Shown here piece by piece: positions 4,342-25,068 of a stretch of DNA of 26,930 bases. The stretch is taken from positions 1-26,930 of the IMG/VR virus record IMGVR_UViG_3300022602_000349, one strand, 5' to 3'. Every line of letters starts with the position of its first letter. The first letter of the stretch is position 1. A program made the position numbers and the translations under genes. Source of the DNA: a virus. Below the pieces are notes generated by a model. That model saw only the letters and a list, made by a program, of their open reading frames with translations, made no database searches and was not told the origin of the DNA.

Positions 4342-4511
4342 ATTCTTCCCCAATTAATTTTTAACCAAACTCTTTCTAAGGCATATTGCCATACTGCTAA
4401 AACAGCATGTATAGCTACTGCATCGCCTAAACCTGTCCAATAAGCAGTAATTAATAACGCCGTAACACGATAACTTAAGGTGCGAACAATAGTTCTACTG
4501 TGTGACTCCAT
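4338..4511 (-). CDS. DUF2061-like small membrane protein (57 residues)
   Basis: A short gene filling the gap between queE and metK. The product begins MESHSRTIVRTLSYRVTALL and ends ALERVWLKINWGRI. That matches the plan I know of DUF2061 proteins: SHSRT...K/R...SWR at the start, one or two hydrophobic helices (here about residues 17-44), and a closing ER.W..I.WG. It would sit in the inner membrane; function unknown. The ATG at 4511 overlaps the queE stop (TAATG), and its TGA overlaps the metK start (TTGA), so it is tightly coupled on both sides. These overlaps and the family pattern together make it real despite its size. Confidence 0.85.
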   Translation of the reverse strand: MESHSRTIVRTLSYRVTALLITAYWTGLGDAVAIHAVLAVWQYALERVWLKINWGRI

Positions 4512-5368
4512 TACTTACCCCAACTGTTGCCCCAAAGATCAACGTGTAATCTTGGGCTGTAATAGTATCCACGACGCATAGCTTCGTCTGCTACGTTAAA
4601 TTTATTACCATCATACACTGATACAACACCGCCTACTGGCATTATGTATATAACACCTGTAAAACCTGCACGTCTATATTCTGATACTGCACGATCGACT
4701 TCATCAAAGTCACTGGGTTTTTCGACTACAAATTTAAGATACGTAGTACCAAATTCTTCATAACTGCACACAATTTCTGGCTTGATAGTATCATCCCACT
4801 TCTCACCACTGGCACTTAGTTTAGCACTAACGCTAAATGTAACTTCTCTGTCACCTTCTAATTGTAATGCGTCTAGGGTAATTCTAAAGTCTTCACTTAA
4901 CTCTTGAGTGCCATTAGTTTCAAATGTAATATTGCGTATATCCTGCATACTAGGGTGTTCAAACAGCTCACCATAAGCACGTTGCCAACCCAGTAATGGC
5001 TCACCACCTGTGATTACTAAATGTACATCATTGCCATTGGCCTGCATCCACTTATTATTAGGAGTTAGGGCTAACATCTTTTCAACTACTTCACTTGTAT
5101 CATATGTTGGGCTTAGATGTTTAAACTTAGGATGCCAACTTGCGTAGCTATCACAGCCTGTGTCAACTAAGGGCAAGTCTTCGTAACGATTGTATAGTTC
5201 TACAGTTTTAGCAACTGCATCTGCTTCTGTACTGCAAGTTCCACGTGCCATACCAAAGCCACTACACTGGAAGTTACAGCCAAATGTACGTAAAAAAACA
5301 CTAGGAACGCCTACAAAACGTCCTTCACCTTGCGCACTGTAAAATATTTCACTAACTTTTAATTTCAT
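4511..5368 (-). CDS. queE: 7-carboxy-7-deazaguanine synthase (radical SAM)
   Basis: Converts 6-carboxytetrahydropterin to 7-carboxy-7-deazaguanine (CDG), third step of the pathway from GTP. It shows the queE start KVSEIFYSAQGEGRFVGVPSVFLRTFGCNFQC, the SAM-binding ITGGEPLL (residues 119-126) and FETNGT. The usual contiguous CxxxCxxC is split: C31 and C35 are in place, then about 35 extra residues intervene before GCDSYASW, whose C72 fits the third cluster cysteine (canonical C..CDTKYAW). C45 is a second candidate. 285 residues is longer than the usual 210-230, mainly from this insert. ATG at 5368 with a sigma70 promoter directly upstream. First gene of an operon with the DUF2061-like gene and metK. 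Function confident; cluster ligand assignment inferred. Confidence 0.92.
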   Translation of the reverse strand: MKLKVSEIFYSAQGEGRFVGVPSVFLRTFGCNFQCSGFGMARGTCSTEADAVAKTVELYNRYEDLPLVDTGCDSYASWHPKFKHLSPTYDTSEVVEKMLALTPNNKWMQANGNDVHLVITGGEPLLGWQRAYGELFEHPSMQDIRNITFETNGTQELSEDFRITLDALQLEGDREVTFSVSAKLSASGEKWDDTIKPEIVCSYEEFGTTYLKFVVEKPSDFDEVDRAVSEYRRAGFTGVIYIMPVGGVVSVYDGNKFNVADEAMRRGYYYSPRLHVDLWGNSWGK

Positions 5369-5423: not shown

Positions 5424-6480
5424 ATTGTTCAAATGCAGTTATCATATGTTTATTTAGGTTAAAGAAATTTAATTTGTTATGATTTGCAATAGCTTCTAGT
5501 TCGTCTGCATTGGCTGTCCAGTCAAACGAATCCAATTGATTAATCAAGTTAACAATAGCATCAAATCTATCCGATGCATTTGTGATAGCATCGTATGATT
5601 CGTCCCATAATGTATTATAAGTTTTAAATCCGAATTTATGTAATTCTTGAATAAATCCATAATTTGCCGCAACAATGAATGGCACTCCTAACATCAATGG
5701 TTTAGTTATTTTTTCAGTGATGTGGATGTCACATTCATCCCAAAGTATATTTTCAACAACTAACATAAAGTTTGAATTATTATAAAGTTCTACAGGAATA
5801 GATTTGCTAATACTGTAGTACTCTGAATTTGAATTCAATATATCAAACTGCTGATAACTATCATATTTGGGTAATGCATATTTTATATCACCTATAGGAT
5901 ATTTGCCTAAGGTATCGCCTGCGTATTGTAGTACAAAATTCTTATTATTAACTTGTGATACGACTTTGTTAACTAATAGGTCTCTTAATTCACGTTTAAC
6001 GCCTATTAAACTGCAAAAATTAAACATTCTATCAGCAGTAAAATCTCGAGTACTATCAATAAAAGAAGCTACATTCCTAGTAGAGGTCATTACAGCGGCT
6101 TGTTCTAATAGAAACCATGGCCACACAATCGGTAAACAATTAATTTTATCTGCATCTATTTTTTCAAATTTTGAATCACTAAAAAAAATATATTTTTTAT
6201 CATTAGGATAAGGACCATGAGGACCAAATTCCTTTAATTGGAATATAAATGATCCTTCCATACCTGCATTTACAATAACCGTCGGATGGTTGGTGGTTAA
6301 GATATTGCGTCTATTTGTAAAATCAACTACTGGAATAGCATCTGGGTCAGTGGATATTTCAATTTGACGATCTAATGTAGCAGGATCACCTGTTTCATGT
6401 AAAAACTTGTACTGTTGGTATGAATTGTATGCCCAAATAAAATTATTAAACAAACTGTTACCAGAATTAATTTTAAGCAT
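5395..6480 (-). CDS. Glycosyltransferase-like protein (GT10/exostosin-like C-terminus)
   Basis: About 361 residues. The C-terminal third carries the stretch NFMLVVENILWDECDIHITEK-ITKPLMLGVPFIVAANYGFI, then LHKFGFKTYNTLWDESYDAI. This resembles the nucleotide-sugar binding part of fucosyltransferase/exostosin-like GT-B enzymes (ExxxTEK, G-P-I/F, GF.t....DESYD). A related C-terminus occurs in the gene at 23857-25068. The likely role is sugar transfer to a surface polymer, a virion protein or DNA; acceptor and donor cannot be read. Start chosen at the ATG at 6480, which overlaps the stop of the phosphoribosyltransferase (TAATG). The N-terminal two thirds are not recognised. Confidence 0.6.
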   Translation of the reverse strand: MLKINSGNSLFNNFIWAYNSYQQYKFLHETGDPATLDRQIEISTDPDAIPVVDFTNRRNILTTNHPTVIVNAGMEGSFIFQLKEFGPHGPYPNDKKYIFFSDSKFEKIDADKINCLPIVWPWFLLEQAAVMTSTRNVASFIDSTRDFTADRMFNFCSLIGVKRELRDLLVNKVVSQVNNKNFVLQYAGDTLGKYPIGDIKYALPKYDSYQQFDILNSNSEYYSISKSIPVELYNNSNFMLVVENILWDECDIHITEKITKPLMLGVPFIVAANYGFIQELHKFGFKTYNTLWDESYDAITNASDRFDAIVNLINQLDSFDWTANADELEAIANHNKLNFFNLNKHMITAFEQFDKYIYDVL

Positions 6481-7013
6481 TATGCTTCCCAGGGATAAAC
6501 AATCCAAACATCATCTTCTGCTTTGTTGATAGTTTCGGCACAGTAGTTAACCTGGTGACTAAAGTTACTTGATAAGTTGTCGATTAGAACAGCAAAGCGA
6601 ACGTTGTTACCCCAAACAGTATCCCACCATGGATCGTTTGGCAGACATGAACTTTGCCAATCTTGAATAATCCAATCTAGTGTGGCACCTGTATCGTTAA
6701 TATCATCAACGATTAATATATTTTTTTTGTTTTTTGGTAACCATTCACCATCTGGTTGCGGATTATAACCAAACGCATCTTCACTCATCCATAGGTTACT
6801 TTCTGAACCTTCTACATGATCACGTAGATTAACTTTAAGTGTATGCATTGGGATATCTAACATATTACTCATAATCACTGCTGGTACTAAGCCGCCGCGG
6901 GTAAGTCCTACAATATAGTCTGGACGCCATGCGTCTTTATACATTTGTAGGCTAATCTTATTCACCATTTGATGGATATCTTCGTAACCGTAGTATTGTT
7001 TCTTAATAGACAT
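6480..7013 (-). CDS. Purine-type phosphoribosyltransferase
   Basis: A 177-residue type I phosphoribosyltransferase. The PRPP-binding loop is clear (ILIVDDINDTGATLDW, residues about 99-114), as is the N-terminal IVGLTRGGLVPAVIMSNML (34-52), typical of hypoxanthine/xanthine-guanine enzymes, which turn a free purine base and PRPP into a nucleotide. In a phage that edits guanine in its DNA, one attractive role is to salvage the guanine released by DpdA-type base exchange; that link is inference. The base-specificity region around residues 60-92 (HVEGSESNLWMSEDAFGYNP) looks divergent, so the substrate is open. It overlaps the upstream hypothetical by 11 nt. Confidence 0.82.
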   Translation of the reverse strand: MSIKKQYYGYEDIHQMVNKISLQMYKDAWRPDYIVGLTRGGLVPAVIMSNMLDIPMHTLKVNLRDHVEGSESNLWMSEDAFGYNPQPDGEWLPKNKKNILIVDDINDTGATLDWIIQDWQSSCLPNDPWWDTVWGNNVRFAVLIDNLSSNFSHQVNYCAETINKAEDDVWIVYPWEA

Positions 7014-8211: not shown

Positions 8212-8820
8212 ATGTTTTTAGATAACAAATATACTAAAATTTATTATAAAATAATTAATCGATCTATTGAGCGGAACCATATCAAAGCACGTCATGATGA
8301 CTTTCAAACTCATCACATTATTCCTCGTTGTTTTGGTGGCACCAATGAAACTAACAATCTTGCTATTCTTACTTACAAAGAGCATAGAATATGTCATAGA
8401 TTATTAATAGGTATGACTACTGGTACAAATAAACATAAGATGATGTATGCTTACAAGCTGTTTAATAAACATTATGATATATCCCATCTTCCTTCTCCAC
8501 AAATATATTGTAACGCAGAATCCTATACTAAGATGTCAAATACAAGAAAGTCTAAAGGATCTTACAAACGTGGAAAAGATAATATCTTTTCTACCCCAGA
8601 AATCATTGAGCAAGTTAGGCAGCGAATGATTATAGACAATCCAATGAAGCGGCCCGATCAACGATTAAGAATGCGTTTAAACAATAACAATCCTAATGTT
8701 CGTCCTATAGTAGTTGAGGGAATAACCTTTCCTACTATAGGAGCTGCGTCACGTCACTTTAACACTACGCCATACTTGCTTAAAAAACAATTTACTTACC
8801 ATTTCTTGATTGAAGTTTAA
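8212..8820 (+). CDS. HNH homing endonuclease
   Basis: A 202-residue free-standing homing endonuclease that would cut DNA in genomes lacking the insertion. The HNH core is at residues 34-62: HHIIPRCFGGTNETNNLAIL, then KEHRICHRLL. The C-terminus (GITFPTIGAASRHFNTTPYLLKKQF, about 170-194) resembles the IENR1/NUMOD repeats that bind the target site. The N-terminal YYKIINRSIERN is typical of phage HNH proteins of this kind. It is one of only two plus-strand genes here, is AT-richer than its neighbours by eye, and its last codons (I-E-V-stop) lie inside the 15-bp repeat. It overlaps the convergent folE by 29 bp. The likely target is the folE 3' end of related phages. Confidence 0.88.
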   Translation: MFLDNKYTKIYYKIINRSIERNHIKARHDDFQTHHIIPRCFGGTNETNNLAILTYKEHRICHRLLIGMTTGTNKHKMMYAYKLFNKHYDISHLPSPQIYCNAESYTKMSNTRKSKGSYKRGKDNIFSTPEIIEQVRQRMIIDNPMKRPDQRLRMRLNNNNPNVRPIVVEGITFPTIGAASRHFNTTPYLLKKQFTYHFLIEV

Positions 8821-9484
8821 TGTTATCAAAGAACTCTTTTTTAGTGCTAGGATCATCTCTAAACGCACCCGTTAATACTGTGGTTTGAGTTAGGCTGGAA
8901 TGTGCCATGATGCCACGATTGATGCAGCAACCATGTTCTGCCTCTAAGTAAACAGCTACGTTATCTGATCCAGTCGCCTTAGCAATTTCTCTCGTGATAT
9001 CATTTGCAAGCTCTTCTTGTAAAGTACCACGGCGAGCACACCATTGAGCAATTCTAGTGTATTTAGATAGACCGATAAGTTTGTTAGCGGCAATAATTCC
9101 AATGTAAGCGACTCCTGCGACAGGCTGATGGTGGTGTGAGCACATACTACGTAACTCGCTACGAACCACAAGCATACCTTCGTATCTATCTTCGCTATCA
9201 TTTGGAAAAGCTGTTGCGTCTGGTGCTGGTTCATATCTACCTGCCATAATTTCGTTAAAGTACATTTTAGCCAGTCTGCGTGCTGTGCCGTGACTGTTAG
9301 GATCTGTTTCGCGATCAATTAAAAGTGTATCAAGCACAGTTTCAAATGCTTCTGTTGCTTCATCAATTAATTGTTCTTTGCCTGCGTCTGTGATGTATTC
9401 TGAGATGTTGTCGCCTGCCCAGAATCGTTTGTTGTTTGCTTTTAGATTGTTGCGAAGTTGTTCGCTAAATTTATATTTTGACAT
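8792..9484 (-). CDS. folE: GTP cyclohydrolase I
   Basis: Converts GTP to dihydroneopterin triphosphate, the first step of 7-deazaguanine (and folate) synthesis. Zinc ligands are visible: C115 and H118 in SMCSHHHQP and C186 or C187 in EAEHGCCINRG. The core VVRSELRSMCSHHHQPVAG, AANKLIGLSKYTRI and TVLTGAFRDD are all family hallmarks. I start it at ATG 9484 (MSKYKFSEQ, 230 residues) behind CGGAG, not at 9517, which has no ribosome site. The C-terminal five residues (SRNGK) appear to be supplied by the HNH insertion; they lie beyond the catalytic core, so activity is probably kept. A sigma70-type promoter lies upstream. Confidence 0.95.
   Translation of the reverse strand: MSKYKFSEQLRNNLKANNKRFWAGDNISEYITDAGKEQLIDEATEAFETVLDTLLIDRETDPNSHGTARRLAKMYFNEIMAGRYEPAPDATAFPNDSEDRYEGMLVVRSELRSMCSHHHQPVAGVAYIGIIAANKLIGLSKYTRIAQWCARRGTLQEELANDITREIAKATGSDNVAVYLEAEHGCCINRGIMAHSSLTQTTVLTGAFRDDPSTKKEFFDNIKLQSRNGK
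8810..8824. repeat. 15-bp direct repeat, right copy
   Basis: TTGAAGTTTAATGTT, identical to 8112-8126. On the minus strand it encodes N221-Q225 of FolE; on the plus strand it contains the stop codon of the HNH gene (8818-8820). Confidence 0.9.
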
Positions 9485-9527
9485 TGTGTCTCCGATGTTA
9501 AGCCAGTGGATTGGCAATTGATAATTA

Positions 9528-9556
9528 ATACTACATGATTATTTAGGCGGTGTCAA
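9528..9556 (-). promoter_or_regulatory. Sigma70-type promoter for folE
   Basis: On the minus strand: TTGACA (9556-9551), 17-nt spacer, TAGTAT (9533-9528). Start near 9521, leader of about 37 nt to the ATG at 9484. The spacer contains CCTAAATA, a sequence also found in the clamp promoter spacer. Confidence 0.65.
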
Positions 9557-10116
9557 ACTATTTGATAATTTATTATCATAACAACTAGGTCATTATGACC
9601 AAAATTGCCTGCACCGTGCCATAGGTCGTGCGACCAAGTTAAGGTATCGCCTGCGGACCAATGGCTAATAACTTGGTCATCAAACTGTAGTACTTGCCCG
9701 TTGGCCCAATCTTGCATTAGGACTATGGATCTGCGTACCTTGTGTATATCTTCAGGCGGTACATTGTTGGTATGTATGTAGTAGGTATAGGTATCTAAAT
9801 GCCAAGGTAGGATACGTCCAGCACCTAACTTTAAGAAGTTATAGTTATGTGTATGTCCAGGCAGTTGATCAAATATATCTCGGGGATCAAAGTCTAACCT
9901 AGTAACATAACTTTGGTAATGTTTGGTACAGGCCTTTTCAATACCCCAACTATTATATAAGGCTTCTTGTTCGAGTTTTAACTGTGTAGCAGGACTATCC
10001 CAAGGATCCTCGGGATTAACTTGATCGTAGGAATAAAGTTCAGTCCATGCAAACTCTATTTGATGGTAGTCCCAAATAACAGGTATTTTACTCTTAGTCA
10101 GGTAATTGGTTATCAT
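9553..10116 (-). CDS. 2-oxoglutarate/Fe(II) oxygenase-like protein
   Basis: A 187-residue protein with the double-stranded beta-helix iron-binding pattern: WHLDT (H106-x-D108) and a distal WHGAGNFG (H167). The segment between contains RRSIVLMQDWANGQVLQFDDQVISHWSAGDTLTW, typical of aspartyl/asparaginyl-hydroxylase-like members. The 2-oxoglutarate-binding Arg after the distal His is not obvious (residues 174-187 lack Arg), so substrate binding may differ. It starts at ATG 10116 inside the last 23 nt of the PLP-enzyme gene and has no clear ribosome site, suggesting coupled translation. With the PLP enzyme and glycosyltransferase it forms a three-gene cassette between queD and folE; substrate unknown. 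Confidence 0.65.
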   Translation of the reverse strand: MITNYLTKSKIPVIWDYHQIEFAWTELYSYDQVNPEDPWDSPATQLKLEQEALYNSWGIEKACTKHYQSYVTRLDFDPRDIFDQLPGHTHNYNFLKLGAGRILPWHLDTYTYYIHTNNVPPEDIHKVRRSIVLMQDWANGQVLQFDDQVISHWSAGDTLTWSHDLWHGAGNFGHNDLVVMIINYQIV

Positions 10117-10999
10117 ATAAGTATTTAGACAAACTTAATCTGTTGGTCTTTGTACCACGGTTATATTCTGGGTACATATTGTTATAATCTAAGCCAAAAA
10201 TCACACATTTACTAGGAGTTACGCCCAATAAACTGCATAAATTAGTCTGTTGTTGTTCAAACCTGGTATAGATAGTGTCTGGTGTATAATTTTTAAATAT
10301 TTCTAATCCTACAGCACAGCCTAGTCGATTAACATACTGCGTTTTGTGACTGACTAATAGACTATCATCGTCATCAAAACGTGTAAATCTAATACCAATA
10401 CGTAGGTGTGCTACGGGTAAAAATTTGCTTAGACTAAAGGTTAGATCTGTTATAGCCGGATGTGTAAAGTCAAAAGAGATATCCTTGCATATACCAAAAT
10501 AAGCACAGTCGACTAACACAGGTACACCTAATGCCAGACATTGATCTAACACCGCCTGCATTCGAGGATGCTCACCGCCTAGATCACTAAATGGTAAACT
10601 GATAACTACAGCATCATTTTCACTAATTACCGCATCATCGATAAACTTCCAGTCTGGAAAGTAGTTACGCCACGAGGCCTGATGATACATATACTCACCT
10701 TTAAAGCAACGAAATCTACGTGTGCGATTCTTTAGGTAAAACTTATCAAATGCTTCTGTGGTACCGTTACTGTATGCGGCAATGGGAAACTCTTCTAGCC
10801 CTTGTACATTATTCAATTGGCCAGATAAGATCCATTTACGATATTCATTAACAAACTCTGTGTGTATGTTACGATCTAACAAACAATTAGTCGCTAACAT
10901 AGACTGCCCGATGGCTTGTACAAAACCTATAGCATTAGGATCAACTACGGCTTCTGCTCCACCATAGGGTAGATGTTTAAGATTAGGTAAGGCAGCCAT
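10094..10999 (-). CDS. PLP-dependent aminotransferase-like enzyme (fold type I)
   Basis: A 301-residue protein, shorter than usual aminotransferases (about 360-400). The active-site order fits fold type I: YSNGTTEAF (77-84, phosphate loop), ISLPFSDLGG (133-142), VLVDCAYFG (161-169, D164 for the pyridine nitrogen and Y167), and TFSLSKFLPVAHLRIG (187-202) with K192 as the Schiff-base lysine and R200. A C-terminal NRLSLSKYL has an Arg for the substrate carboxylate. It would transfer an amino group or act on an amino acid; substrate unknown. ATG at 10999 overlaps the stop of the glycosyltransferase (TAATG). The small-domain regions look reduced. Confidence 0.75.
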   Translation of the reverse strand: MAALPNLKHLPYGGAEAVVDPNAIGFVQAIGQSMLATNCLLDRNIHTEFVNEYRKWILSGQLNNVQGLEEFPIAAYSNGTTEAFDKFYLKNRTRRFRCFKGEYMYHQASWRNYFPDWKFIDDAVISENDAVVISLPFSDLGGEHPRMQAVLDQCLALGVPVLVDCAYFGICKDISFDFTHPAITDLTFSLSKFLPVAHLRIGIRFTRFDDDDSLLVSHKTQYVNRLGCAVGLEIFKNYTPDTIYTRFEQQQTNLCSLLGVTPSKCVIFGLDYNNMYPEYNRGTKTNRLSLSKYLYDNQLPD

Positions 11000-12093
11000 T
11001 ACTTAATATTCTCTAATAGTTTAGTAGCACTAAAGAAATAGTGATGTAAGCCTCGAGCCTGTTGATGAATAAATTTAGCATATTCATCATAGTTAGACAT
11101 AAACTCACGAATGTGTGCTATCAGCTGTTGTTTGTGATGTAGATAACTGCTATAACTTTCAGTCCACTCGCTTGGATACTTCCATATCTCAGCATACATT
11201 TCTTTATAACTTAGTCGATCTGGTACCATTGGGATAGCATCAGTTAAGCTACCTTCATACATGCTAATACCTAGTGTTTCTTGTAGGTTAGCACTGAATA
11301 CCATCTTAGCTTCACCTAGTAGAGTATGATAGCCTTCTTTAGTTAGGTTTTGTTCTTGACAAATAATCCATTCATATTCTGGCATAGAATTGGCAAGGTC
11401 TTTGAAGATTTCAACCTGCTTCTCTGGTGCTATACGATGCGGAAACAAGATTAAATCACGCTTTGTAGTCTTATAAGGTGTAATAGTTTCTGGCATATAT
11501 TCCATAGGCCAACCACTACGCACTACTTTCTTGGACTCTGTTAATTCCATCATGTCTTCATATTTCCACTGTGGATCTTCAGGACTTCTTCCATTGTGTA
11601 ATAGATTAGTGTAGAACAGATCAATGTGAAAGTCTGTGGCAAAGTAGTTATGGTCAATGGCATGATAGAATGATTTCTCAGCATGTCTAACCCAAGGAAC
11701 ATCACCAATAAGACGTCCTAAGAAGTCCTGTGGATCATAACTACCAGCATGCCATAATGCATGTATAGTTACTTTAATACCCAGTAGTTCAGACATATAC
11801 CTAAGGTTGATAATTCCAGGATGCCAAGCATCAGTAAATATAAAGTGATCTCCTGACTTAACCCTGCCTTCTGTGAAGAGTCTTGCCATTCGTTCAACCT
11901 GAACAGCCTTGTAGATATTAGTACCACCAAAATTGAGGAAAGCACCAGGAGTAGTGGCACTAGGTATATCAGTCGGGCCCGCAATAACATAGACTTCATG
12001 GCCATGCTCCTCGAGTAACTTAGGTACATGAGTCTTCCACTGACCCGTGTACCTTGTCTCGACTGCTTCTAGATCAACTAGATATACAGTCAT
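10999..12093 (-). CDS. GT-B glycosyltransferase (GT4-like)
   Basis: A 364-residue retaining-type glycosyltransferase. The N-terminal domain starts MTVYLVDLEAVETRYTGQW with a HGHEVYVIAGP strand. The C-terminal domain has LILFPHRIAPEKQVEIFKDL, EYEWIICQ, AKMVFSANLQETLGISMYEG and AIPMVPDR. The E...E pair in ETLGISMYEG is the nucleotide-sugar site of GT4-type enzymes. Start at ATG 12093, two bases after the stop of the 76-residue gene (TAAGATG); the longer reading frame begins inside that gene. The acceptor could be modified DNA, a virion protein or a host glycan; its position in the deazaguanine region makes DNA worth testing. Confidence 0.8.
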   Translation of the reverse strand: MTVYLVDLEAVETRYTGQWKTHVPKLLEEHGHEVYVIAGPTDIPSATTPGAFLNFGGTNIYKAVQVERMARLFTEGRVKSGDHFIFTDAWHPGIINLRYMSELLGIKVTIHALWHAGSYDPQDFLGRLIGDVPWVRHAEKSFYHAIDHNYFATDFHIDLFYTNLLHNGRSPEDPQWKYEDMMELTESKKVVRSGWPMEYMPETITPYKTTKRDLILFPHRIAPEKQVEIFKDLANSMPEYEWIICQEQNLTKEGYHTLLGEAKMVFSANLQETLGISMYEGSLTDAIPMVPDRLSYKEMYAEIWKYPSEWTESYSSYLHHKQQLIAHIREFMSNYDEYAKFIHQQARGLHHYFFSATKLLENIK

Positions 12094-12094
12094 C

Positions 12095-12325
12095 TTATCG
12101 ACGCCCTTGTGGAGCCCCTGTTTGGCCTTGACGTTGACGCCATTGTTCACGACGTTTACGCTTTTCTTGCCATTCACGATAAGCTGGTGACTTATACAAG
12201 TCAGCTTCATCGTACTTGATCATGTGGAAACGACAGTAGTTTAACCATGCATCTAAGTCGTTGTAAATTTTTGATACTTCTGGGCTCATACGTAGGTATT
12301 TGTTAAGCCATGCTGGATTTGCCAC
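12095..12325 (-). CDS. Small basic hypothetical protein (76 residues, GTG start)
   Basis: No family recognised. The product begins MANPAWLNKYLRMSPEVSKIYNDLDAWLNYCRFHMIKYDEADLY and ends in a very basic helix (REWQEKRKRREQWRQRQG). The basic tail suggests nucleic-acid binding. I choose the GTG at 12325 because AAGGAG lies about eight bases upstream (12333-12338); the longer frame runs into queD without a ribosome site. It sits directly between the QueD-like gene and the glycosyltransferase. Confidence 0.7.
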   Translation of the reverse strand: MANPAWLNKYLRMSPEVSKIYNDLDAWLNYCRFHMIKYDEADLYKSPAYREWQEKRKRREQWRQRQGQTGAPQGRR

Positions 12326-12336
12326 AATAAATCTCC

Positions 12337-12786
12337 TTAAATAGTGACAGTTTGGTGAGGACGAGTACAGTTGTACTCGGTGTAACACCCATTTTCGCCA
12401 TCTTCACTTACTTCAATGTGAACATCGCGATTGGGATACTTTTGTGCAATCTGCACATATAAATCATCTGCAATCATCTCGCATGATTTATAATTTAATT
12501 CTAATACGGAACCTTGACCCACATACAGGCTTTCAAGCCATCGTTTGAACTGGATGAACTCGATGTCCCTGTCATCGTGCCACACATCAATTGACACCCG
12601 GAAATGGAACATATGACGGTGAGGATTAGCAAGGAACGATACATCATATTCATCTCCAGTTTTAAGTTGAGGGTCTGTAGCGGCTGCAGGATAGCAATGA
12701 ATACCTTCTTTTTGAAAGGTAACCCAAATCTTTTTCTTAGCCGCAGTTATAATTCTATTTACTTGTTCACGTTCTGCTTGAATCAT
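12337..12786 (-). CDS. queD: QueD-like 6-carboxytetrahydropterin synthase homologue
   Basis: A 149-residue tunnelling-fold protein. Zinc histidines fit the QueD/PTPS pattern: GIHCYPAA (H30) and PHRHMFHFRVSI (H56, H58), the latter in the place of canonical LHGHNY. IEFIQFKRWLESLY corresponds to the D-F-x-x-L-K segment, and IEVSEDGENGCYTEY to the C-terminal VKETxxxGCIYRGE of E. coli QueD. The catalytic Cys four residues before HGH is absent (Leu here), so either C31 replaces it or the reaction differs. ATG at 12786 overlaps the upstream stop (ATGA). Presence with folE, queE and a DpdA-type gene supports a QueD role, turning dihydroneopterin triphosphate into CPH4. A diverged relative with another substrate remains possible. 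Confidence 0.72.
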   Translation of the reverse strand: MIQAEREQVNRIITAAKKKIWVTFQKEGIHCYPAAATDPQLKTGDEYDVSFLANPHRHMFHFRVSIDVWHDDRDIEFIQFKRWLESLYVGQGSVLELNYKSCEMIADDLYVQIAQKYPNRDVHIEVSEDGENGCYTEYNCTRPHQTVTI

Positions 12787-12977
12787 TCTGCACAACCATT
12801 TTCTTCTGACCATAGCTCATCATTGCGAGCAAGTTGGTCTGGGGTTAATAAACACTCTGTTAGAATAAAACGTTTACTCATATATGGAAGTTTTTCTAAT
12901 TCAGTAGCTATAGTTACTCTAGCCTGTAGATTAGCTAGACGCTTGCTTTCTACCCATTCTTTATATAATTTAATCAT
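12783..12977 (-). CDS. Hypothetical protein, 64 residues
   Basis: No family recognised. Mostly helical and charged (KLYKEWVESKRLANLQARVTIATELEKL), then a segment MSKRFILTECLLTPDQLARNDELW. No membrane segment. Both ends overlap neighbours by ATGA (12974-12977 and 12783-12786), which supports it as a real coupled gene between the 185-residue protein and QueD. Confidence 0.65.
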   Translation of the reverse strand: MIKLYKEWVESKRLANLQARVTIATELEKLPYMSKRFILTECLLTPDQLARNDELWSEENGCAE

Positions 12978-13531
12978 TTAATAATCTCATCTTTACCATA
13001 TTGATCCCAATCGGTAAAGGTTTCTCTAGTGGTTAATGAATTTAATGTATGACACCACACACCTGGATTGGTTGCATTGAAGTCTACATCGTCTAGCTTA
13101 ATTGTAGCATTATAACCTAGATGTTGTAAATAGGGCAATTTAACCGAAATCTGCGGAATAAATCTACGTTTCTCAATTAATCCACCTTCTACTAATCCTG
13201 CTACATCCTTTACATCTAAATCTAAGGTACACCAGAAACCTGCTTCTAAGCATACATGGATCATATCTTCCCAAGGGCGCCAAACACCAACATTGTTAAC
13301 GTCACCGTTGGCATCAAAACTTTGATTAGCACCAAAGTAAATGTGTTTAATCTGATTAGGTGTTAATTGACATTTAGCATTGTAATCGTTGATTATTGCT
13401 AAGATTTCATCAGCCTCGTGTATTCCTACAACAAATAACGTAGGCATTCCGTAAGCGGGAGTCCGCTCGATTTCTTCACCTACAAAGAATGTTATTGCTT
13501 CTGCTGTGCCTGTGGTGTATTCACGTTTCAT
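12974..13531 (-). CDS. Conserved phage protein of unknown function (185 residues)
   Basis: A soluble protein beginning MKREYTTGTAEAITFFVGEEIERTPAYGMPTLFVVG and ending FTDWDQYGKDEIIK, with conserved-looking blocks HIYFGANQSF, WRPWEDMIHVCLEAGFWCTLDL, EGGLIEKRRFIPQISVKLPY and KLDDVDFNATNPGVWCH. I recognise very similar proteins from marine T4-like phages, where no function is known to me. Its place between the DpdA-type and QueD-like genes makes a link to base modification possible, but only by association. ATG at 13531 with AAGG upstream. Confidence 0.75.
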   Translation of the reverse strand: MKREYTTGTAEAITFFVGEEIERTPAYGMPTLFVVGIHEADEILAIINDYNAKCQLTPNQIKHIYFGANQSFDANGDVNNVGVWRPWEDMIHVCLEAGFWCTLDLDVKDVAGLVEGGLIEKRRFIPQISVKLPYLQHLGYNATIKLDDVDFNATNPGVWCHTLNSLTTRETFTDWDQYGKDEIIK

Positions 13532-13535
13532 TTAA

Positions 13536-13742
13536 TTACCTTAAGATATCGAGGATTGGGTCTGCTAACTTAACTTTAAGTTCCTCAATTTGACGTTTAA
13601 TGAATAGTTTTTCTTGTTTCATTTTACCTAAATGAGCATCGTCTAAGTAGTTAGTATAACCTCTTTTGATGCTTTCGTCAAGTTTATGGTGATGTTTTTC
13701 TAGTTCAGCAAGTTTATATTCTAGTGTTACACGATTACACAT
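13536..13742 (-). CDS. YdcH/DUF465-like small helical protein
   Basis: A 68-residue helical hairpin. The pattern LEKHHHKLDESIKRG ... DDAHLGKMKQEKLFIKRQIEEL fits the DUF465/YdcH family (HxxLDxxI, then LKKEKLxLKDxI). Function of the family is unknown. The ATG at 13742 overlaps the stop of the DpdA-type gene (TAATG), so both are made from one message. Confidence 0.65.
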   Translation of the reverse strand: MCNRVTLEYKLAELEKHHHKLDESIKRGYTNYLDDAHLGKMKQEKLFIKRQIEELKVKLADPILDILR

Positions 13743-15307
13743 TATTCATCTCCTAGGTCTGCTTCTAAGTTATCTAATGTTGCTTCATCAAATCCACTAT
13801 CGTCGATATGATGTTCTTCTGGTTCTTCTAGATCAAACAAATTATTAAAAGTAGTGTTTGGGTTGACAGTTTTCTTACCTGTCGCGCCACGTGTGCCAAT
13901 AATCTGCATCCAGAATTTATTATTTTCTACAATAATCTGTTCAGCTGTTGCGCGATCGGGAGCAGCAAATATACTATCTACTACGTCTTTAAAGTATACA
14001 CGATTAAATGTTTCCTGAACTAACATATGAGGTGTTACGCCTTGATCATATTGTCTATTAGCTTCTTGTACACTGTTAATATGACTCCAAACGTTATGAC
14101 CCATTTGAATAGCATAACTAAAACTATCCCACGATGTTTTACCTTCTTTACCTATTTTGTTTAGATCGCCTGGCGCATAATAGCATACATCATTAATTTG
14201 AATACGATTACTTACTGGACTATCTGTAAAATTAGCAAACTTGCCGTCTTGTAGGACTGCATCACTAAACTTACGTTGATCTAATGCATATTTCTTATCA
14301 TCTACGCTAGGCACCATACGATATACCCATTTCTTACGATCAACAATTTCTGTTTGGATATAAATTTGCCCGTTAGCAGAAGCCAGGAATGGGCTTGCGC
14401 AATCAAAGGATATAGTAAATGCTGGGTTGACATATTTTCTTACAGCACGTTGAATATCAGTTAGCAAACAAGCCCATTCTAGCTTACTTGTACCCAAGAA
14501 GTGCATCCAATCATGAATACCTTCTTGTAGTAAATTGTCATAGCGCATGGCTACTAGACGTTTTAACACTAGATGAACATCACACATGTTCTGTCCACCC
14601 ATAGCCCAACCATTAAAATGCTTGCCTGGATATTGCTTAGGATCACAGTACTTCTTCATGCGATCATACCAATCGTCTGCATCAGCATGTGTTTCGCCCT
14701 GAAGAACGTTTAAGAACTTACAGTTACCGTTACGATTGTTAATAAACCAATCATTGTTTATGTAAGTGCCTTGTACAGCTTCTTCGTAGGTATTAATACC
14801 TGTGGCTTTACGACCTGCTGGACTACGAGCTACCCAAGCTGGAATATCCAAACACATACCATAATCCATATATGCGTCCATCCAAGTTAATACTAATTCA
14901 CGTTTCTTTTGTGCTTTAGGACAGTTTGGATCTTTCCAATCACCTTCCCAAACACCTTTACCGATTTGGAACCCACCCGAGTCACCTAAGATAAAGCTAC
15001 GCGAACGATCTCTATTACGCACCATATCTTCTTTTGGACTGTGCTTGTTAACATCTAGCTCTGCATGGCCTGCTGAATATAAGCTCCAATGATATGGAAA
15101 GTATGCGGCATCTGGATTAAGCCAGTTTAGGCCTTCGATGCCATTTTCAAAGTTAGCTGGTACGCGAGTACTTTCAACATAGGTATTACCATTAGCATCC
15201 GGAAAACGTTGTTTTCCTACGTAAGTGGCATAGAATCCACTCAATGCTGGTAGGAATACAGCATAATCTTTCTGTTTTAGGGTTAAATTATCAATCTCGT
15301 GTGTCAT
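13742..15307 (-). CDS. dpdA: DpdA-type DNA-guanine transglycosylase (TGT-like)
   Basis: A 521-residue enzyme of the tRNA-guanine transglycosylase superfamily, of the large phage type that exchanges guanine in DNA for a 7-deazaguanine. Blocks in order: FILGDSGGFQIGKG (nucleophile candidate D109 in DSGGFQ), CLDIPAWVA (152-160), KFLNVLQGETH (197-207), FNGWAMGGQN (231-240), WMHFLGTSKLEWA (267-279) and FTISFDCASPF (297-307, D302 as second Asp). These follow the TGT barrel order. The CxCxxC zinc site of bacterial Tgt is not visible, and the protein is about 140 residues longer than Tgt, as in DpdA. folE, queD and queE in the window support the DNA role over tRNA. ATG at 15307. Confidence 0.88.
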   Translation of the reverse strand: MTHEIDNLTLKQKDYAVFLPALSGFYATYVGKQRFPDANGNTYVESTRVPANFENGIEGLNWLNPDAAYFPYHWSLYSAGHAELDVNKHSPKEDMVRNRDRSRSFILGDSGGFQIGKGVWEGDWKDPNCPKAQKKRELVLTWMDAYMDYGMCLDIPAWVARSPAGRKATGINTYEEAVQGTYINNDWFINNRNGNCKFLNVLQGETHADADDWYDRMKKYCDPKQYPGKHFNGWAMGGQNMCDVHLVLKRLVAMRYDNLLQEGIHDWMHFLGTSKLEWACLLTDIQRAVRKYVNPAFTISFDCASPFLASANGQIYIQTEIVDRKKWVYRMVPSVDDKKYALDQRKFSDAVLQDGKFANFTDSPVSNRIQINDVCYYAPGDLNKIGKEGKTSWDSFSYAIQMGHNVWSHINSVQEANRQYDQGVTPHMLVQETFNRVYFKDVVDSIFAAPDRATAEQIIVENNKFWMQIIGTRGATGKKTVNPNTTFNNLFDLEEPEEHHIDDSGFDEATLDNLEADLGDE

Positions 15308-15464: not shown

Positions 15465-15796
15465 TCTTGTTCTTCCTTGGTAAGAATATCCATCACCTGA
15501 AACTTCTCGTAGGCATCTTTAAGCCCAGGATGTTTTTCCATGCGTTCTTTAAGTGTAGCTTCTTCTCGCTGTTTTTCTATAGCCCAACGAATAGCACTAT
15601 CAGCATCCCAGCTTAGACCAACAGTTACACCTTGACTCATCAGTTGCCAACTACTACCGTCATAGACTTCTACTGATTGATTAGTGGGATTGTATCTTAA
15701 CTGCCCAACATTCAGCATACCATTATTGTAAATGTTTGGAGGATAGTTTCCTGTTACTGTTACATAGGCACTATTTGTTGCTAGGTTCTTAATCAT
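15461..15796 (-). CDS. Small virion-like protein with YDGSSW motif
   Basis: A 111-residue protein. Residues about 29-54 read VGQLRYNPTNQSVEVYDGSSWQLM, a beta motif common in phage fibre and surface proteins that display short repeated folds. The C-terminal half is a charged helix (AIRWAIEKQREEATLKERMEKHPGLKDAYEKFQ). I recognise similar proteins from cyanophages and their relatives. It may be a structural or chaperone-like protein, but this is unproven. ATG at 15796 overlaps the sulfotransferase-like gene by 8 nt. Confidence 0.65.
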   Translation of the reverse strand: MIKNLATNSAYVTVTGNYPPNIYNNGMLNVGQLRYNPTNQSVEVYDGSSWQLMSQGVTVGLSWDADSAIRWAIEKQREEATLKERMEKHPGLKDAYEKFQVMDILTKEEQE

Positions 15797-16349
15797 AAAA
15801 TTTTATACCATTAATTAACGCATAATCTTCTGCGTATACTTCTTTAATTCTATCCACTAATTTAGTATCTTTTTCTAATAACCCATTTAGGAACTTAGAT
15901 AACATTGCATGCTGTGTACTACTGTCTGCATCAACGTCAACTATATTTAGATCAATACCTTGCGTAGACAAATATTTTTGTAGTTTTTCAGCAACGCCAT
16001 GAACTCCAGCAAAGTAAACACATGATTCTTTTGGAACTGAATTAATAAAGTATACTTGTTTTTCAGTATGATCGTCAAAAATCATTCGATCAAAAACCAA
16101 TGTTGTAGTTAACCTATTCCATTCACTGATAGTAAGCTCGGGTGGATAACCTGTACTACACAGATACTGTGCCATACCGCTGACCCAACGTTTAACCGGA
16201 TCACGCAATAACACAATAACTTTCTTATTGGCTAGGTCAGTGGTTAGGAAATTATCAATTCCCCAATTATTAGCCAGCAATAGTTTACCAACGTAACTAC
16301 TAGAGTTCTTAGGGATAGGAATGTAGCGAACATCTTGACAGCTAAACAT
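15789..16349 (-). CDS. Sulfotransferase-like protein, possibly frameshifted at its 5' end
   Basis: A 186-residue protein with both PAPS-binding signatures of sulfotransferases: YIPIPKNSSSYVGKLL (9-24, 5'-phosphosulfate loop) and VIVLLRDPVKRWVSGMAQYL (44-63, 3'-phosphate site). It would move sulfate from PAPS to an unknown acceptor, perhaps a glycan. The start at ATG 16349 is suspect: the purine run GGGGGA ends right at the codon, too close for a ribosome site. A different frame opens at ATG 16402 in TAATG overlap with the clamp stop. One extra G in the run at 16351-16355 would join the two (see the separate entry). The region holding the catalytic His is not identified. Confidence 0.72.
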   Translation of the reverse strand: MFSCQDVRYIPIPKNSSSYVGKLLLANNWGIDNFLTTDLANKKVIVLLRDPVKRWVSGMAQYLCSTGYPPELTISEWNRLTTTLVFDRMIFDDHTEKQVYFINSVPKESCVYFAGVHGVAEKLQKYLSTQGIDLNIVDVDADSSTQHAMLSKFLNGLLEKDTKLVDRIKEVYAEDYALINGIKFYD

Positions 16350-20854: not shown

Positions 20855-20883
20855 ATTATACTTAGTTTAACGACGTTAGCCAA
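20855..20883 (-). promoter_or_regulatory. Sigma70-type promoter for the polymerase gene
   Basis: On the minus strand: TTGGCT (20883-20878), 17-nt spacer, TATAAT (20860-20855). Start near 20848, giving a leader of about 56 nt, the longest of the sigma70-type leaders here, with room for a control element. Confidence 0.55.
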
Positions 20884-21455
20884 TGGCTTATTTCGTCAAA
20901 CACTATTTGGTTTCCGTGATCATCTAAATGGTTTATCAATCCAGGATGTTTACTAAATGTTTGATTAATGTTGTATACACATGGTATATCATACCGAATA
21001 CCGTTGGCATTGTTGACCATATGAAATTGGTTTAGTTCTGGATATTCGCCTAGAATGTTTAGAATTTCTGTGCATAATAATCTAGAAATATCATTATAGT
21101 AGTCTAGTTCAAAATATCGTTCAAAATAACCTACAGCTATCTTAGCATCTGGTTCTGTACGATCCTTAAGATCACTGTAGATTAAATCTGCATCTTTATG
21201 TAACGGATCATTACTGTGAATAGGATGTGTATTGCAGTGTACTCTATTAGGGCTTGCGTGGCTGATAATTACTGCGTCATACCTAGTGAAATTAATTGAT
21301 TTGATCTGTTGTAAGATCTTGTATTCACTTACTGCGGCCTGTGCTATGTTGGTAACAGTGTGCTGTCTGGCCAGCAAGTTAGGCCATCCTAATTGATCGG
21401 GATATTTAACCTGCCAATTAGCAGCAAAACTGTCACCACATACAGCTATTTTCAT
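20862..21455 (-). CDS. SGNH-hydrolase-like protein
   Basis: A 197-residue protein beginning MKIAVCGDSFAANW, the GDS block I of SGNH hydrolases (Ser at residue 9). QAAVSEYKILQQIK fits block II, and YDAVIISHASPNRV the third strand with its polar block. A C-terminal HPGLINHLDDHGNQIV supplies His candidates. It is one of two such proteins here; the other is at 2069-2758. Ester hydrolysis is likely by family but the substrate is unknown. ATG at 21455 overlaps the dsbA-like stop (TAATG). Confidence 0.55.
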   Translation of the reverse strand: MKIAVCGDSFAANWQVKYPDQLGWPNLLARQHTVTNIAQAAVSEYKILQQIKSINFTRYDAVIISHASPNRVHCNTHPIHSNDPLHKDADLIYSDLKDRTEPDAKIAVGYFERYFELDYYNDISRLLCTEILNILGEYPELNQFHMVNNANGIRYDIPCVYNINQTFSKHPGLINHLDDHGNQIVFDEISHWLTSLN

Positions 21456-21774: not shown

Positions 21775-22464
21775 TTATGATAATGCAGCAATTATCTCCG
21801 AGGCTGGTGTAGTAGTCCATCTAAAGTTAATTGTAGTGCGTCTGTTTGAGCGATACCCTGGCGGTCGTTCAACTGAATGTATAGCGTGTACATCAAATAA
21901 CCAAGTTTCACCTTCATTTAATTTGCATGATACATCTCGTTCAATTTTGTCTATATCGGGCATAGTAAATGCTGCTATCTGATGTGGCTCAATAACTTTC
22001 CAAAACCATGTAGTTTCAATGTTATCACCCACTGATGTGATCAGTGTAAAGGTCGTATCTCTACTATTGGGATTTCCTGTGTCTTGGTGGGGAAACATAT
22101 AGTCCCCATCGGACATTGTCTGTATTCGAACATATGGTGGCACTGGCATATTTCTAATCTTTGCAGGCAATCGATTAAATATTTCTTCTTCTAATGCCTG
22201 ATGCATCTGGTGAATTTTAAAATTAAATAATTCCTGGCCAGCAAAGTGGTCAACCATCTTTTTCTTAAGTTGCCAATAGAGATCAACTGTATCTTGACAT
22301 TCAGGCAATAATAGATATTTGTGATTTAATTCCGAGGGTTCATTTTCGCTATACTCAGAAGTTACTGTCTGCAAATGCTCGTACTCAGCTGATAAAATTA
22401 AGTTTATCTGTTCGGTTATACTTGGAGTTAGGATATCTAACTCAGTTAGCATACAATATTTCAT
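21775..22464 (-). CDS. 2OG/Fe(II) oxygenase-like protein, paralogue B
   Basis: A 229-residue protein, second of a tandem pair. Iron site: FPHQD (H126-x-D128) and AIHSVERP (H196), followed by RSNRRTTINFRW whose Arg (208/209) suits 2-oxoglutarate. The segment GDNIETTWFWKV and GETWLFDVHAIH fit the aspartyl/asparaginyl hydroxylase-like subgroup. By eye about half of its residues match paralogue A, with the metal site and KIRNMPVPPY block conserved. ATG at 22464 overlaps the stop of A (ATGA). Substrate unknown: a protein side chain, base or sugar are all possible. Confidence 0.72.
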   Translation of the reverse strand: MKYCMLTELDILTPSITEQINLILSAEYEHLQTVTSEYSENEPSELNHKYLLLPECQDTVDLYWQLKKKMVDHFAGQELFNFKIHQMHQALEEEIFNRLPAKIRNMPVPPYVRIQTMSDGDYMFPHQDTGNPNSRDTTFTLITSVGDNIETTWFWKVIEPHQIAAFTMPDIDKIERDVSCKLNEGETWLFDVHAIHSVERPPGYRSNRRTTINFRWTTTPASEIIAALS

Positions 22465-23132
22465 AGTAATGCGTGCATGACTTCGGTGATGGTTGTGTTA
22501 CTCCATCTAAAGTTAATACATACACGATTCCTCTCACGGAATCCTAAGGGACGCTCAACTGAATGAATTTCGTTGATGTTAAACAGCCAAGTTTCACCGT
22601 CAGACAACTTAGCAGATGACACACGTTCCATTTTGTCCATGTCAGGCAATGTTCTAATAGCGATATGATGCGGTTCTGTTTGACGCCAAAACCATGTAGT
22701 TTCAATGTTATCTCCCACAGATGTAATCAATGTTGTGGGCATAGGAGCACTATCAACATGTGGGAATAGGTAATCTCCGTCAGTCATAGTCTGTAGACGT
22801 ATGTATGGAGGCACGGGCATGTTTCTAATCTTTTCTGGTAAACGACTAAAGATTTCATCTTCGAGGTCTTTGTGCATCTGATGGATCCTAAAATCCATTG
22901 CAACATGGTCCTTATAGTAGGCAACTATCTTTGCTTTGTAACTGGCATATAGTGCATGTTCTTCTGGATCATCTGTTAGGAATCGATATCTGTGATTAAT
23001 ATCCGAAGTGCTGGTGTCGTTATATTCTGCTGTTAGTGTTAGTAAATGTGATTCTGTTGTTAGTATTGCATTTATTTGTTCGCTGATGCTAGGGGTTAAT
23101 ATATCTAGGTCAGTGAGTAAGCAATATTTCAT
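22461..23132 (-). CDS. 2OG/Fe(II) oxygenase-like protein, paralogue A
   Basis: A 223-residue protein with FPHVD (H125-x-D127), EIHSVERP (H190) and RNRVCINFRW (R201/R203), the complete iron/2-oxoglutarate pattern. It shares the start MKYC(L/M)LT(D/E)LDILTPSI and the block KIRNMPVPPY with paralogue B, so the pair arose by tandem duplication. It is shorter by six residues, partly in the loop after HxD. ATG at 23132 lacks a strong ribosome site. Upstream is the divergent region with the inverted repeat and a GCTAAATA element, so its promoter may be coordinated with the plus-strand gene. Confidence 0.72.
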   Translation of the reverse strand: MKYCLLTDLDILTPSISEQINAILTTESHLLTLTAEYNDTSTSDINHRYRFLTDDPEEHALYASYKAKIVAYYKDHVAMDFRIHQMHKDLEDEIFSRLPEKIRNMPVPPYIRLQTMTDGDYLFPHVDSAPMPTTLITSVGDNIETTWFWRQTEPHHIAIRTLPDMDKMERVSSAKLSDGETWLFNINEIHSVERPLGFRERNRVCINFRWSNTTITEVMHALL

Positions 23133-23870: not shown

Positions 23871-25068
23871 TTAATTCTAGAATACTAGATTCAAGTCCAG
23901 AAGTTAATATAGTTTCTGCAACCTGTTTGAATTCATTGACAAAATACTGTTGATTGTGTTTGAATCTATCAGCATGTGTATGCCATAGTCGGCTGGTTAG
24001 TTCTACATCTACTAATAAATGTCTATTCAATTCAATAGCCTCTGATAATCGCAATGCGTGATCAGTAATAGTATCATAACTGTGATCAATCACATCATCA
24101 AATACATCAAATCCCAGTAATCGCAGTTGTTCTACTGTGCCACTGCTGGAAATAAAAATAGGAAAATTTGCTCCTAAGATAGTATTAACATACTTGTCGT
24201 TTAAAAATTCAGATGGTTCAAAAAATGTTGTATCAGTAACAATATCAATAAATGTATGTTGGTACAGTGGTGCCAGTACTTGATTATAGTTATTCAAATA
24301 ATCCTTATAGTATGGTAAATTTAGAAGTTTACTATGATCAAACTTAGTGATACCTTTACGAATTTCAGATTTAACATGATTGTGTACTGTATCAAAACAC
24401 CAATCTAAAAAACACCCTACGGTAGGGTCATTATTCCATCCAATGCAACTTACATAGCCATACTGATCTAAGTCGCTGGCTAACAGATATGTGACAGCCG
24501 CAGTTCTATGAGGTCTATTAACATTGTTTAGACAAATAAAAGTTTTAGCATCTGGGGATTTAGTTGTAACTACAGGCGAATTGGTATATTGTGATGCTTT
24601 GTGACCTAAGGTACCTAGGCCTAGACCTTTGAATATTAAATTGTTAGGTAGTGCAATTTGACTAATTTCTCTAGACAGATTTGCTACCAGACTGCAAAAC
24701 AAGATAGTTTTGTTAGGATTCTGTTCAGCCGTGCTAACAAAATTTAATACTGTGTCACTAACTAAAAATGGAATAGTATATTGATTGTTTGGAGTAAACT
24801 TAACATATCGTAGAAAATTGTTATGGTATAAGTGATCAGTATTAATGACGATTATATATTGTTCGTTGAGATTGGAAATATAATCTGCACATTTCAATTT
24901 AGAATGTTCTGACACTATAACTTTATAGTTAGAAATTTGATATTGGTCAAGTAATCTAACCACTTGTTCAGACATCCACCTAGGGCTAAACGGTAAATTA
25001 GTTAGCCAATTTGTTGCTTGGGTAGCATCTAGTAACTCAGTCTCTTCCCACCATACTACATTTTTCAT
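23857..25068 (-). CDS. Glycosyltransferase-like protein (exostosin/GT10-like C-terminus)
   Basis: A 403-residue protein. The middle has KTFICLNNVNRPHRTAAVTYLL, typical of exostosin-like or fucosyltransferase-like GT-B proteins. The C-terminal third (about 275-335) reads FIDIVTDTTFFEPSEFLNDKYVNTILGANFPIFISSSGTVEQLRLLGFDVFDDVIDHSYDTI. The block GxxFPIFISS..G..E.LR.LGFD.F....D.SYD parallels GVPFIVAAN.GF.QEL..FGFKTYN...DESYD in the gene at 5395-6480. It probably transfers sugar to a surface glycan. It lies with the acyltransferase and desaturase, all of which could alter host or virion surface molecules. ATG at 25068 overlaps the desaturase stop (ATGA). Confidence 0.6.
   Translation of the reverse strand: MKNVVWWEETELLDATQATNWLTNLPFSPRWMSEQVVRLLDQYQISNYKVIVSEHSKLKCADYISNLNEQYIIVINTDHLYHNNFLRYVKFTPNNQYTIPFLVSDTVLNFVSTAEQNPNKTILFCSLVANLSREISQIALPNNLIFKGLGLGTLGHKASQYTNSPVVTTKSPDAKTFICLNNVNRPHRTAAVTYLLASDLDQYGYVSCIGWNNDPTVGCFLDWCFDTVHNHVKSEIRKGITKFDHSKLLNLPYYKDYLNNYNQVLAPLYQHTFIDIVTDTTFFEPSEFLNDKYVNTILGANFPIFISSSGTVEQLRLLGFDVFDDVIDHSYDTITDHALRLSEAIELNRHLLVDVELTSRLWHTHADRFKHNQQYFVNEFKQVAETILTSGLESSILELIKQN

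Follow-up and report, generated by a model that had tools for sequence, protein, structure and literature searches.

Phages are known to shield their DNA in two separate ways, by deazaguanine swapping and by glucosylation. The phage Dpd modification relies on FolE, QueD, QueE, QueC and DpdA. Among the deoxynucleosides reported from phages are dPreQ0, dPreQ1, dG+ and dADG (PMC6884629), and the main text of that paper holds no word starting with "glycosyl" or "sugar". Sugar transfer, likely as a DNA shield too, is represented by the alpha- and beta-glucosyltransferases of phage T4, whose substrate is, according to the accessible parts of the literature, a modified cytosine. In tRNA, the galactosyltransferase acting on queuosine is named QTGAL and the mannosyltransferase QTMAN. 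Such queuosine glycosyltransferases place a sugar on a 7-deazaguanine nucleotide (PMC12518689, available part). The present analysis concerns a predicted glycosyltransferase (GT), encoded on a 26,930-base fragment of a viral contig (IMG/VR record IMGVR_UViG_3300022602_000349; this whole stretch is called the window), whose family would join both shields if the interpretation given here is true. The GT is probably a working part of a phage deazaguanine DNA-modification system and would glycosylate a deazaguanine derived from 7-carboxy-7-deazaguanine (CDG). This reading draws on the genes with which the GT is associated, on its predicted fold and active-site residues, and on the pattern of QueC and QueF being mostly absent while a true QueD is present.

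The GT gene is located at 10999-12093 on the minus strand and encodes 364 residues, with the start assigned by the family alignment to the ATG at 12093, though the frame is open to 12210. Its structure model features a GT-B fold (pLDDT 89.4, pTM 0.87), which Foldseek matched to BshA at an E-value of 9e-9. VIA comparisons with BshA and sucrose-phosphate synthase gave Z scores of 23-24 over about 300 residues, GT4-like retaining enzymes being the top matches and the identity to BshA and other GT4 structures being only about 10-12%. An EX7E motif combined with the Arg and Lys of the diphosphate site is the signature of retaining GT4 enzymes. In the GT alignment, R220, K225 and E280 occur in 55 of 55 sequences and E272 in 50, the other five carrying Asp; E272 and E280 form the EX7E motif, and E9, R14, Y15 and T16 of the N-terminal domain are invariant, too. 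The Pfam group-1 model Glycos_transf_1 was matched by 13 of 34 GT relatives at E-values up to 0.1 (best 5e-5) and not by the window GT itself. The protein is a predicted GT4-type retaining GT-B glycosyltransferase, which has the fold and the EX7E motif in common with BshA and other GT4 enzymes; the acceptor of BshA is a small molecule, malate. Two other identities were rejected, as the ten Pfam families matched by the 34 relatives at an E-value of 0.1 include neither a T4 DNA glucosyltransferase model nor the QTMAN-type N-terminal domain. QTMAN and QTGAL further differ by placing their sugars on the cyclopentene hydroxyls of queuosine, in tRNA.

The genomic surroundings of the GT were compared in two sets of viral loci, in which genes were called by hidden Markov models built from proteins of the window and of named phages. 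The close loci are the best 80 of at least 599 relatives obtained in a viral-contig scan with the window GT, and the distant loci are the best 80 of 592 relatives obtained with a diverse profile led by the GT of phage ACP17; there is no contig-level sequence overlap between both sets. In all 160 of these best-80 loci, DpdA, QueE, FolE or a QueD-like paralogue (QDP) is present, and 159 contain at least two of them. After the removal of near-duplicates, a deazaguanine gene was found in 116 of 116 loci and at least two in 115. QDP itself accompanies the GT in 75 of the 80 close and 77 of the 80 distant loci with a median gap of about 235 bp, and the conserved partner gene orf185 in 70 and 59, respectively. 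Starting from the window-type dpdA, 80 loci were fetched, 47 of which extend at least 4 kb downstream; all 47 carry GT, QDP and orf185, and as close relatives they are weaker evidence for the linkage.

Among 50,697 phage records searched by tblastn, the window GT matched 19, 15 of them at a query coverage of at least 80%. The GT of phage X1 as query matched 16 records, namely PA5oct-like phages (11), ACP17 (2), Phosso, X1 and BUCT-ZZ01, and the GT of BUCT-ZZ01 matched five, all inside this set. Full-length relatives in this collection are restricted to these phages, all of which contain deazaguanine genes. Gene order was read for one PA5oct-like record and for the other four phages, that of the remaining ten PA5oct-like records being derived from match coordinates. 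It differs: DpdA-GT-QDP with QueE three genes on in PA5oct (dpdA adjoins the GT in 11 of 11 PA5oct-like records); QueD, FolE, an orf185 homologue, a DpdA of another subfamily, GT, QDP and QueE in ACP17; FolE, further genes, GT, DpdA, QDP and QueE in X1; QueE, xanthine-guanine phosphoribosyltransferase (XGPRT), QueD, FolE, a second GT4, DpdA, QDP and GT in BUCT-ZZ01; and QDP, GT, FolE and QueE in Phosso. In a tree of 24 GT sequences, the BUCT-ZZ01 enzyme groups with the GTs of two loci of the PLP enzyme treated below, forming a second subfamily.

The linkage is also found outside recognized phages. A single scan of a genome collection of 84,980 prokaryotic species yielded 17 GT loci, in 16 of which a DpdA homologue lies no more than about 5 kb from the GT, the seventeenth being a 4.6-kb contig with FolE. 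Some of these loci resemble phage contigs and others are alphaproteobacterial contigs; nine of the 17 harbor relatives of a tyrosine integrase, a class checked by Pfam on one of them. In Magnetospirillum the order is GT-QDP-DpdA, and locus L338 also features a PTPS gene above the cut-off. In five loci from Sulfitobacter, Shimia, Azospirillum and Pelagibacterium, the GT has a Vut_1/YhhQ-like gene as its immediate upstream neighbor; of two such proteins tested against the Vut_1 Pfam cut-off of 27.2, the Azospirillum protein scored 31.9 bits and the Sulfitobacter protein 25.4 bits. The bacterial dpd island, as described in the accessible part of the literature, likewise places DpdA on mobile bacterial DNA, whereas the loci found here pair DpdA with the GT and either a YhhQ-like gene or QDP. 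A PADLOC search with ten proteins, including three bacterial DpdA homologues, matched no model apart from one weak match for the GT. The association of the GT family with deazaguanine genes was observed in nearly every context examined, so that its membership in the deazaguanine system is fairly likely, and its near-constant proximity to DpdA suggests that many phages may put a sugar on a DpdA-inserted base.

The window encodes a DpdA-like base transglycosylase at 13742-15307 on the minus strand. DSGGFQ together with a second invariant Asp is the active-site motif of tRNA-guanine transglycosylases (TGTs). In the DpdA homologues, DSGGFQ and D302 are invariant (8/8), and hhalign connects the window-type DpdA to a TGT-like group from X1, ACP17 and BUCT-ZZ01 with a probability of 96% and an E-value of 5e-9; this group includes a record annotated as queuine tRNA-ribosyltransferase. 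The GT-linked DpdAs fall into two subfamilies joined by profile comparison alone. FolE, GTP cyclohydrolase I (8792-9484, minus strand; Pfam GTP_cyclohydroI at 7e-39, PHROG at 5e-44), and QueE, a radical SAM CDG synthase (4511-5368, minus strand; PHROG QueE-like at 9e-55), are assigned by direct profile matches.

The gene at 12337-12786 on the minus strand had been named queD in a first-pass annotation of the window made without database searches. Of the two flanking genes named there, folE is confirmed by the Pfam match and queD is not: the protein belongs to phrog_17812, a group of unknown function, gave no PTPS profile match, and retains three His and the C-terminal Glu, with the Cys and the Asp-His of QueD absent from the alignment, unlike phage QueD, in which the catalytic Cys and Asp-His are present. 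The hhalign comparison of both (probability 73%, E-value 3e-5) supports no more than a remote relationship confined to the C-terminal half, and canonical QueD was therefore rejected in favor of a QueD-like paralogue. Since a canonical QueD exceeds the cut-off in 14 of 20 GT records searched, QDP is a second, QueD-like protein. QDP also occurs near FolE in phages in which no family GT was found, such as phiST, RHph_I1_18, Ahp1 and D479, three of which have a DpdA-like gene nearby by eye. A CDG decarboxylase, DpdL, was reportedly predicted by Cui et al. in 2023, a protein with which QDP could conceivably be identical.

Searches for the later pathway enzymes used a set of 20 GT records that overlaps with the QueD set and differs from it; many of the records are fragments, as is the window itself, so that a missing gene carries little weight. 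QueC exceeded the cut-off in one of the 20, as a weak match in two joined pieces, and QueF in none. In six records without a family GT, the same search detected QueC and QueF in Vibrio phage 2.275.O and a partial QueC in D479. Because QueC and QueF are mostly absent and a true QueD is present, CDG or a CDG-derived base is the likely substrate. Like the phage Dpd modification, the loci described here encode the early enzymes of the pathway along with a DpdA-like transglycosylase; unlike it, they have GT and QDP as conserved parts and mostly lack QueC and QueF.

According to the proposed mechanism, CDG would be generated by FolE and QueE together with a canonical QueD whose gene lies elsewhere, and QDP, perhaps with orf185, would process or deliver it. 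DpdA would then exchange guanine in DNA for the CDG-derived base, and the GT4-type enzyme would add a sugar with retained configuration, most likely on the inserted base, resulting in a bulky glycosylated deazaguanine that would shield the phage DNA. Acceptor, sugar, order of the steps and the role of QDP are all inferred. As for the order, it is conceivable, although unlikely, that the substrate of the GT is the free deazaguanine, as base or nucleoside, and that DpdA subsequently inserts the ready glycosylated base. Several GT4-fold neighbors of the enzyme, such as BshA with malate, use small-molecule acceptors, and the Vut_1/YhhQ-like gene upstream of the GT in the four alphaproteobacterial genera named above is of a transporter type. 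Nevertheless, DpdA would need to accommodate a large base in this case, and the T4 DNA glucosyltransferases act after replication (PMC13216743, available part). Glycosylation of the inserted base by the GT is the preferred sequence of events.

The sugar link itself may be unusual, either an acyl glycoside on the carboxylate of CDG or a C-glycoside at carbon 7 of the ring; if QDP decarboxylates CDG, the resulting ring would offer the GT no handle, and a C-glycoside becomes possible. It is tentatively put forward that these genes represent an unrecognized and widespread class of hypermodification, in which a glycosylated 7-deazaguanine replaces guanine through an extension of the CDG pathway by GT and QDP, in diverse large phages as well as in integrase-bearing elements of Alphaproteobacteria.

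Several observations weigh against a role of the GT in such a system. The carboxylate is the only obvious handle of CDG and is an unusual acceptor. The predicted activity of DpdA is based on motif and profile similarity, and searches with its homologues against Pfam, PHROG and PDB sequence profiles gave no match. Many of the viral GT loci stem from related phages, so that the 160 are not independent cases, and in some loci the GT could be a passenger, with QDP or DpdA as the genuine partner. In Phosso, the dpdA homologue lies about 170 kb from the GT. Furthermore, a remote GT, with 26.7% identity along 65% of the query, is present in four phage records. PhiXhv-15, the record that was inspected, has it next to annotated sugar-metabolism genes, and the annotation of the surrounding 14.7 kb contains neither a Que gene nor FolE; the 24-sequence GT tree with its long branches did not separate the PhiXhv GT from the family. 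Finally, three more GT records give weak QueC-like matches that stay below the cut-off, and a weak QueF-like match of ACP17 falls inside its folE.

Genes for nucleotide sugars are repeatedly found around the GT. Among the 80 close loci, nine have an epimerase gene near the GT, 19 a UDP-glucose dehydrogenase-like gene and 44 a short DegT-like aminotransferase; for the 80 distant loci the numbers are 37, seven and three, respectively. The DegT-like enzyme, of about 195 residues, directly follows the GT in 31 of 146 scored loci (Pfam tested on one), for example at 11092-11676 in L029 and at 13804-14406 in L151. In the window, the slot after the GT holds no epimerase, UDP-glucose dehydrogenase-like or DegT-like gene. 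The GT could serve cell-envelope or virion glycans, with the link to dpdA as mere neighborhood. This fits the epimerase and dehydrogenase genes in the slot following the GT and the other glycan-like genes of the window, and jumbo cyanophages carry glycosyltransferase clusters thought to act on outer polysaccharides (PMC7824862, available part). Such a function is considered quite improbable, however, as the linkage holds over unrelated phages with differing gene orders, over both DpdA subfamilies and in bacterial loci as well.

In the window, the GT gene is followed by two further minus-strand genes, which together with it form the contiguous trio at 9553-12093 between the so-called queD and folE that the first-pass annotation had pointed out; its place and overlaps were confirmed by the coordinates. 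The first (10094-10999) has base 10999 in common with the GT gene and encodes a short fold-type-I aminotransferase-like enzyme of 301 residues that presumably depends on pyridoxal phosphate (PLP), and the second (9553-10116), overlapping the PLP gene by 23 bases, encodes a putative 2-oxoglutarate (2OG)-Fe(II)-type oxygenase of 187 residues. By themselves, the three window proteins gave no significant match in Pfam, PHROG or NCBIfam, and PDB-sequence profile searches with the alignments of GT, PLP, QDP and two DpdAs gave no usable match. Still, the class names given to the GT and the PLP enzyme are upheld by their relatives: in addition to the Glycos_transf_1 matches, the Aminotran_1_2 profile was found in 16 of 30 PLP relatives (best E-value 2e-5; none in the window protein), and K192 within an S-L-S-K motif is invariant in 30 of 30. 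The 2OG class relies on an HxD...H pattern read by eye, the best Pfam match being PhyH at an E-value of 0.58. Judged from their length of about 300 residues, the relatives of the PLP enzyme seem to be devoid of most of the C-terminal domain.

The trio had been interpreted as acting in series by oxidation, amination and sugar transfer, either to glycosylate a base or to build a special sugar. Three overlapping genes in the same direction would suit such a cassette; a GT-family gene is present in 21 and any deazaguanine gene in 23 of 47 PLP loci (31 non-redundant), and the DegT-like aminotransferase of the close GT loci is another short PLP gene. Nevertheless, a homologue of the window PLP gene was found in just two of 46 GT records, picked mainly for length from more than 160, and in one of the 160 best-80 GT loci. 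Conversely, with the two other trio contigs left out, dpdA occurs anywhere in the record in 21 of 45 PLP records and was not found in the other 24, some of which are possibly fragments. PLP-2OG pairs occur elsewhere without deazaguanine genes as well. As a general pathway the series is not supported, and it is very unlikely to operate here. With respect to the expectation that the trio travels with dpdA, the GT does so in nearly every context, whereas PLP and 2OG do not as a rule, about half of the PLP genes lying in such a cluster. The exact trio is limited to the window and two other contigs (L009, L089), so that the opposite case named in the first-pass annotation, a trio mainly next to glycan or tail-fiber genes in phages lacking dpdA, does not apply as worded.

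PLP and 2OG are more often partners of one another than of the GT. In 18 of 47 PLP loci, or 12 of the 31 non-redundant ones, no more than 150 bp separate the PLP gene from a distant 2OG relative (L133 by a weak match), and the oxygenase scan returned two contigs that are 99% identical over the 2OG gene. Compared with the window (8792-12093), PLP, 2OG and FolE of L009 and L089 are 99-100% identical, in contrast to 86% for the GT, 89-91% for DpdA and 91% for QDP. This jump of identity at the border of GT and PLP looks as if the PLP-2OG pair had entered by recent recombination, separately from the GT. PLP and 2OG are judged to be an accessory pair occupying a variable region that separates GT from FolE. 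Seven PLP loci outside deazaguanine clusters were read by eye: in L121 and L129 the gene directly after PLP is amidinotransferase-like and the next one radical-SAM-like, L115 has an amidinotransferase-like gene in the vicinity, and ATP-pyrophosphatase-like neighbors are seen in L113 and L117. A role of the pair in small amino-acid-derived molecules is a guess.

The accessible part of PMC7824862 mentions the deazaguanine system of PA5oct and names no such GT. Likewise, no report tying a GT to DpdA was found in the available parts of the literature, including PMC6884629, PMC6892783, PMC11945000, PMC12783734, PMC7824862, PMC13282480, PMC12707154, PMC13390438 and PMC10273834, an absence that is weak evidence. 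If the proposed role of the GT is true, a new modified nucleotide is predicted in the cultured phages PA5oct, Paride, MIJ3 and ACP17, which is testable by mass spectrometry. Moreover, a function would be given to proteins annotated as hypothetical in hundreds of viral contigs, the occurrence of a QueD-like protein alongside a true QueD would be explained, and bacterial mobile elements would come into view that perhaps modify their DNA in the same way. Bacterial contigs with the GT-DpdA pair and a YhhQ-like gene or QDP (L332, L333, L334, L336, L337 and L338-L343) are possible carriers of a glycosylated deazaguanine system.

Further conserved genes accompany the GT. A second GT4 family is common to Synechococcus phage BUCT-ZZ01 and the Sulfitobacter/Shimia loci at about 32% identity and is likewise found near DpdA (L141 4364-5707; L332 12254-13381); it possibly adds a second sugar. 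The partner gene orf185 (12974-13531, minus strand) has homologues in PA5oct (EST35_0364) and ACP17 (locus L004, 7323-7721). Its model (pLDDT 88.6) has no clear match among solved structures, the ACP17 homologue being the only clear structural match. A degenerate QueE was considered and rejected for orf185, because the VIA Z scores of 5.2-6.5 to four QueE entries are tied with those of STAS domains (5-7), lie in a range that possibly means a mere common arrangement, and are accompanied by a profile-comparison probability of 0.3% with QueE. A small conserved open reading frame encoding 97 residues between QDP and GT (12095-12388, minus strand) has a homologue in 75 of the 80 close GT loci.

A phosphoribosyltransferase (6480-7013, minus strand; Pribosyltran E-value 1.5e-13) is conserved close to QueE, with homologues in 56 of 80 close and 50 of 80 distant GT loci, for example at 2447-2908 in L141 and 11330-11764 in L002; the BUCT-ZZ01 homologue is the one annotated as XGPRT. 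The enzyme could recycle the guanine released by DpdA to GMP and thus feed FolE. Other metabolic genes were noticed by eye in the window at 21775-23132, 25065-25838, 2069-2758, 20862-21455 and 15789-16349, their classes being a similar 2OG-like pair, desaturase-like, two GDSL-like and sulfotransferase-like; the first 2OG-like protein of this pair, the one that was scanned, gave no Pfam match. In QueE of the window, PA5oct, X1 and BUCT-ZZ01, the third cluster cysteine is, in an alignment read by eye, apparently displaced by an insertion at least about 45 residues downstream.

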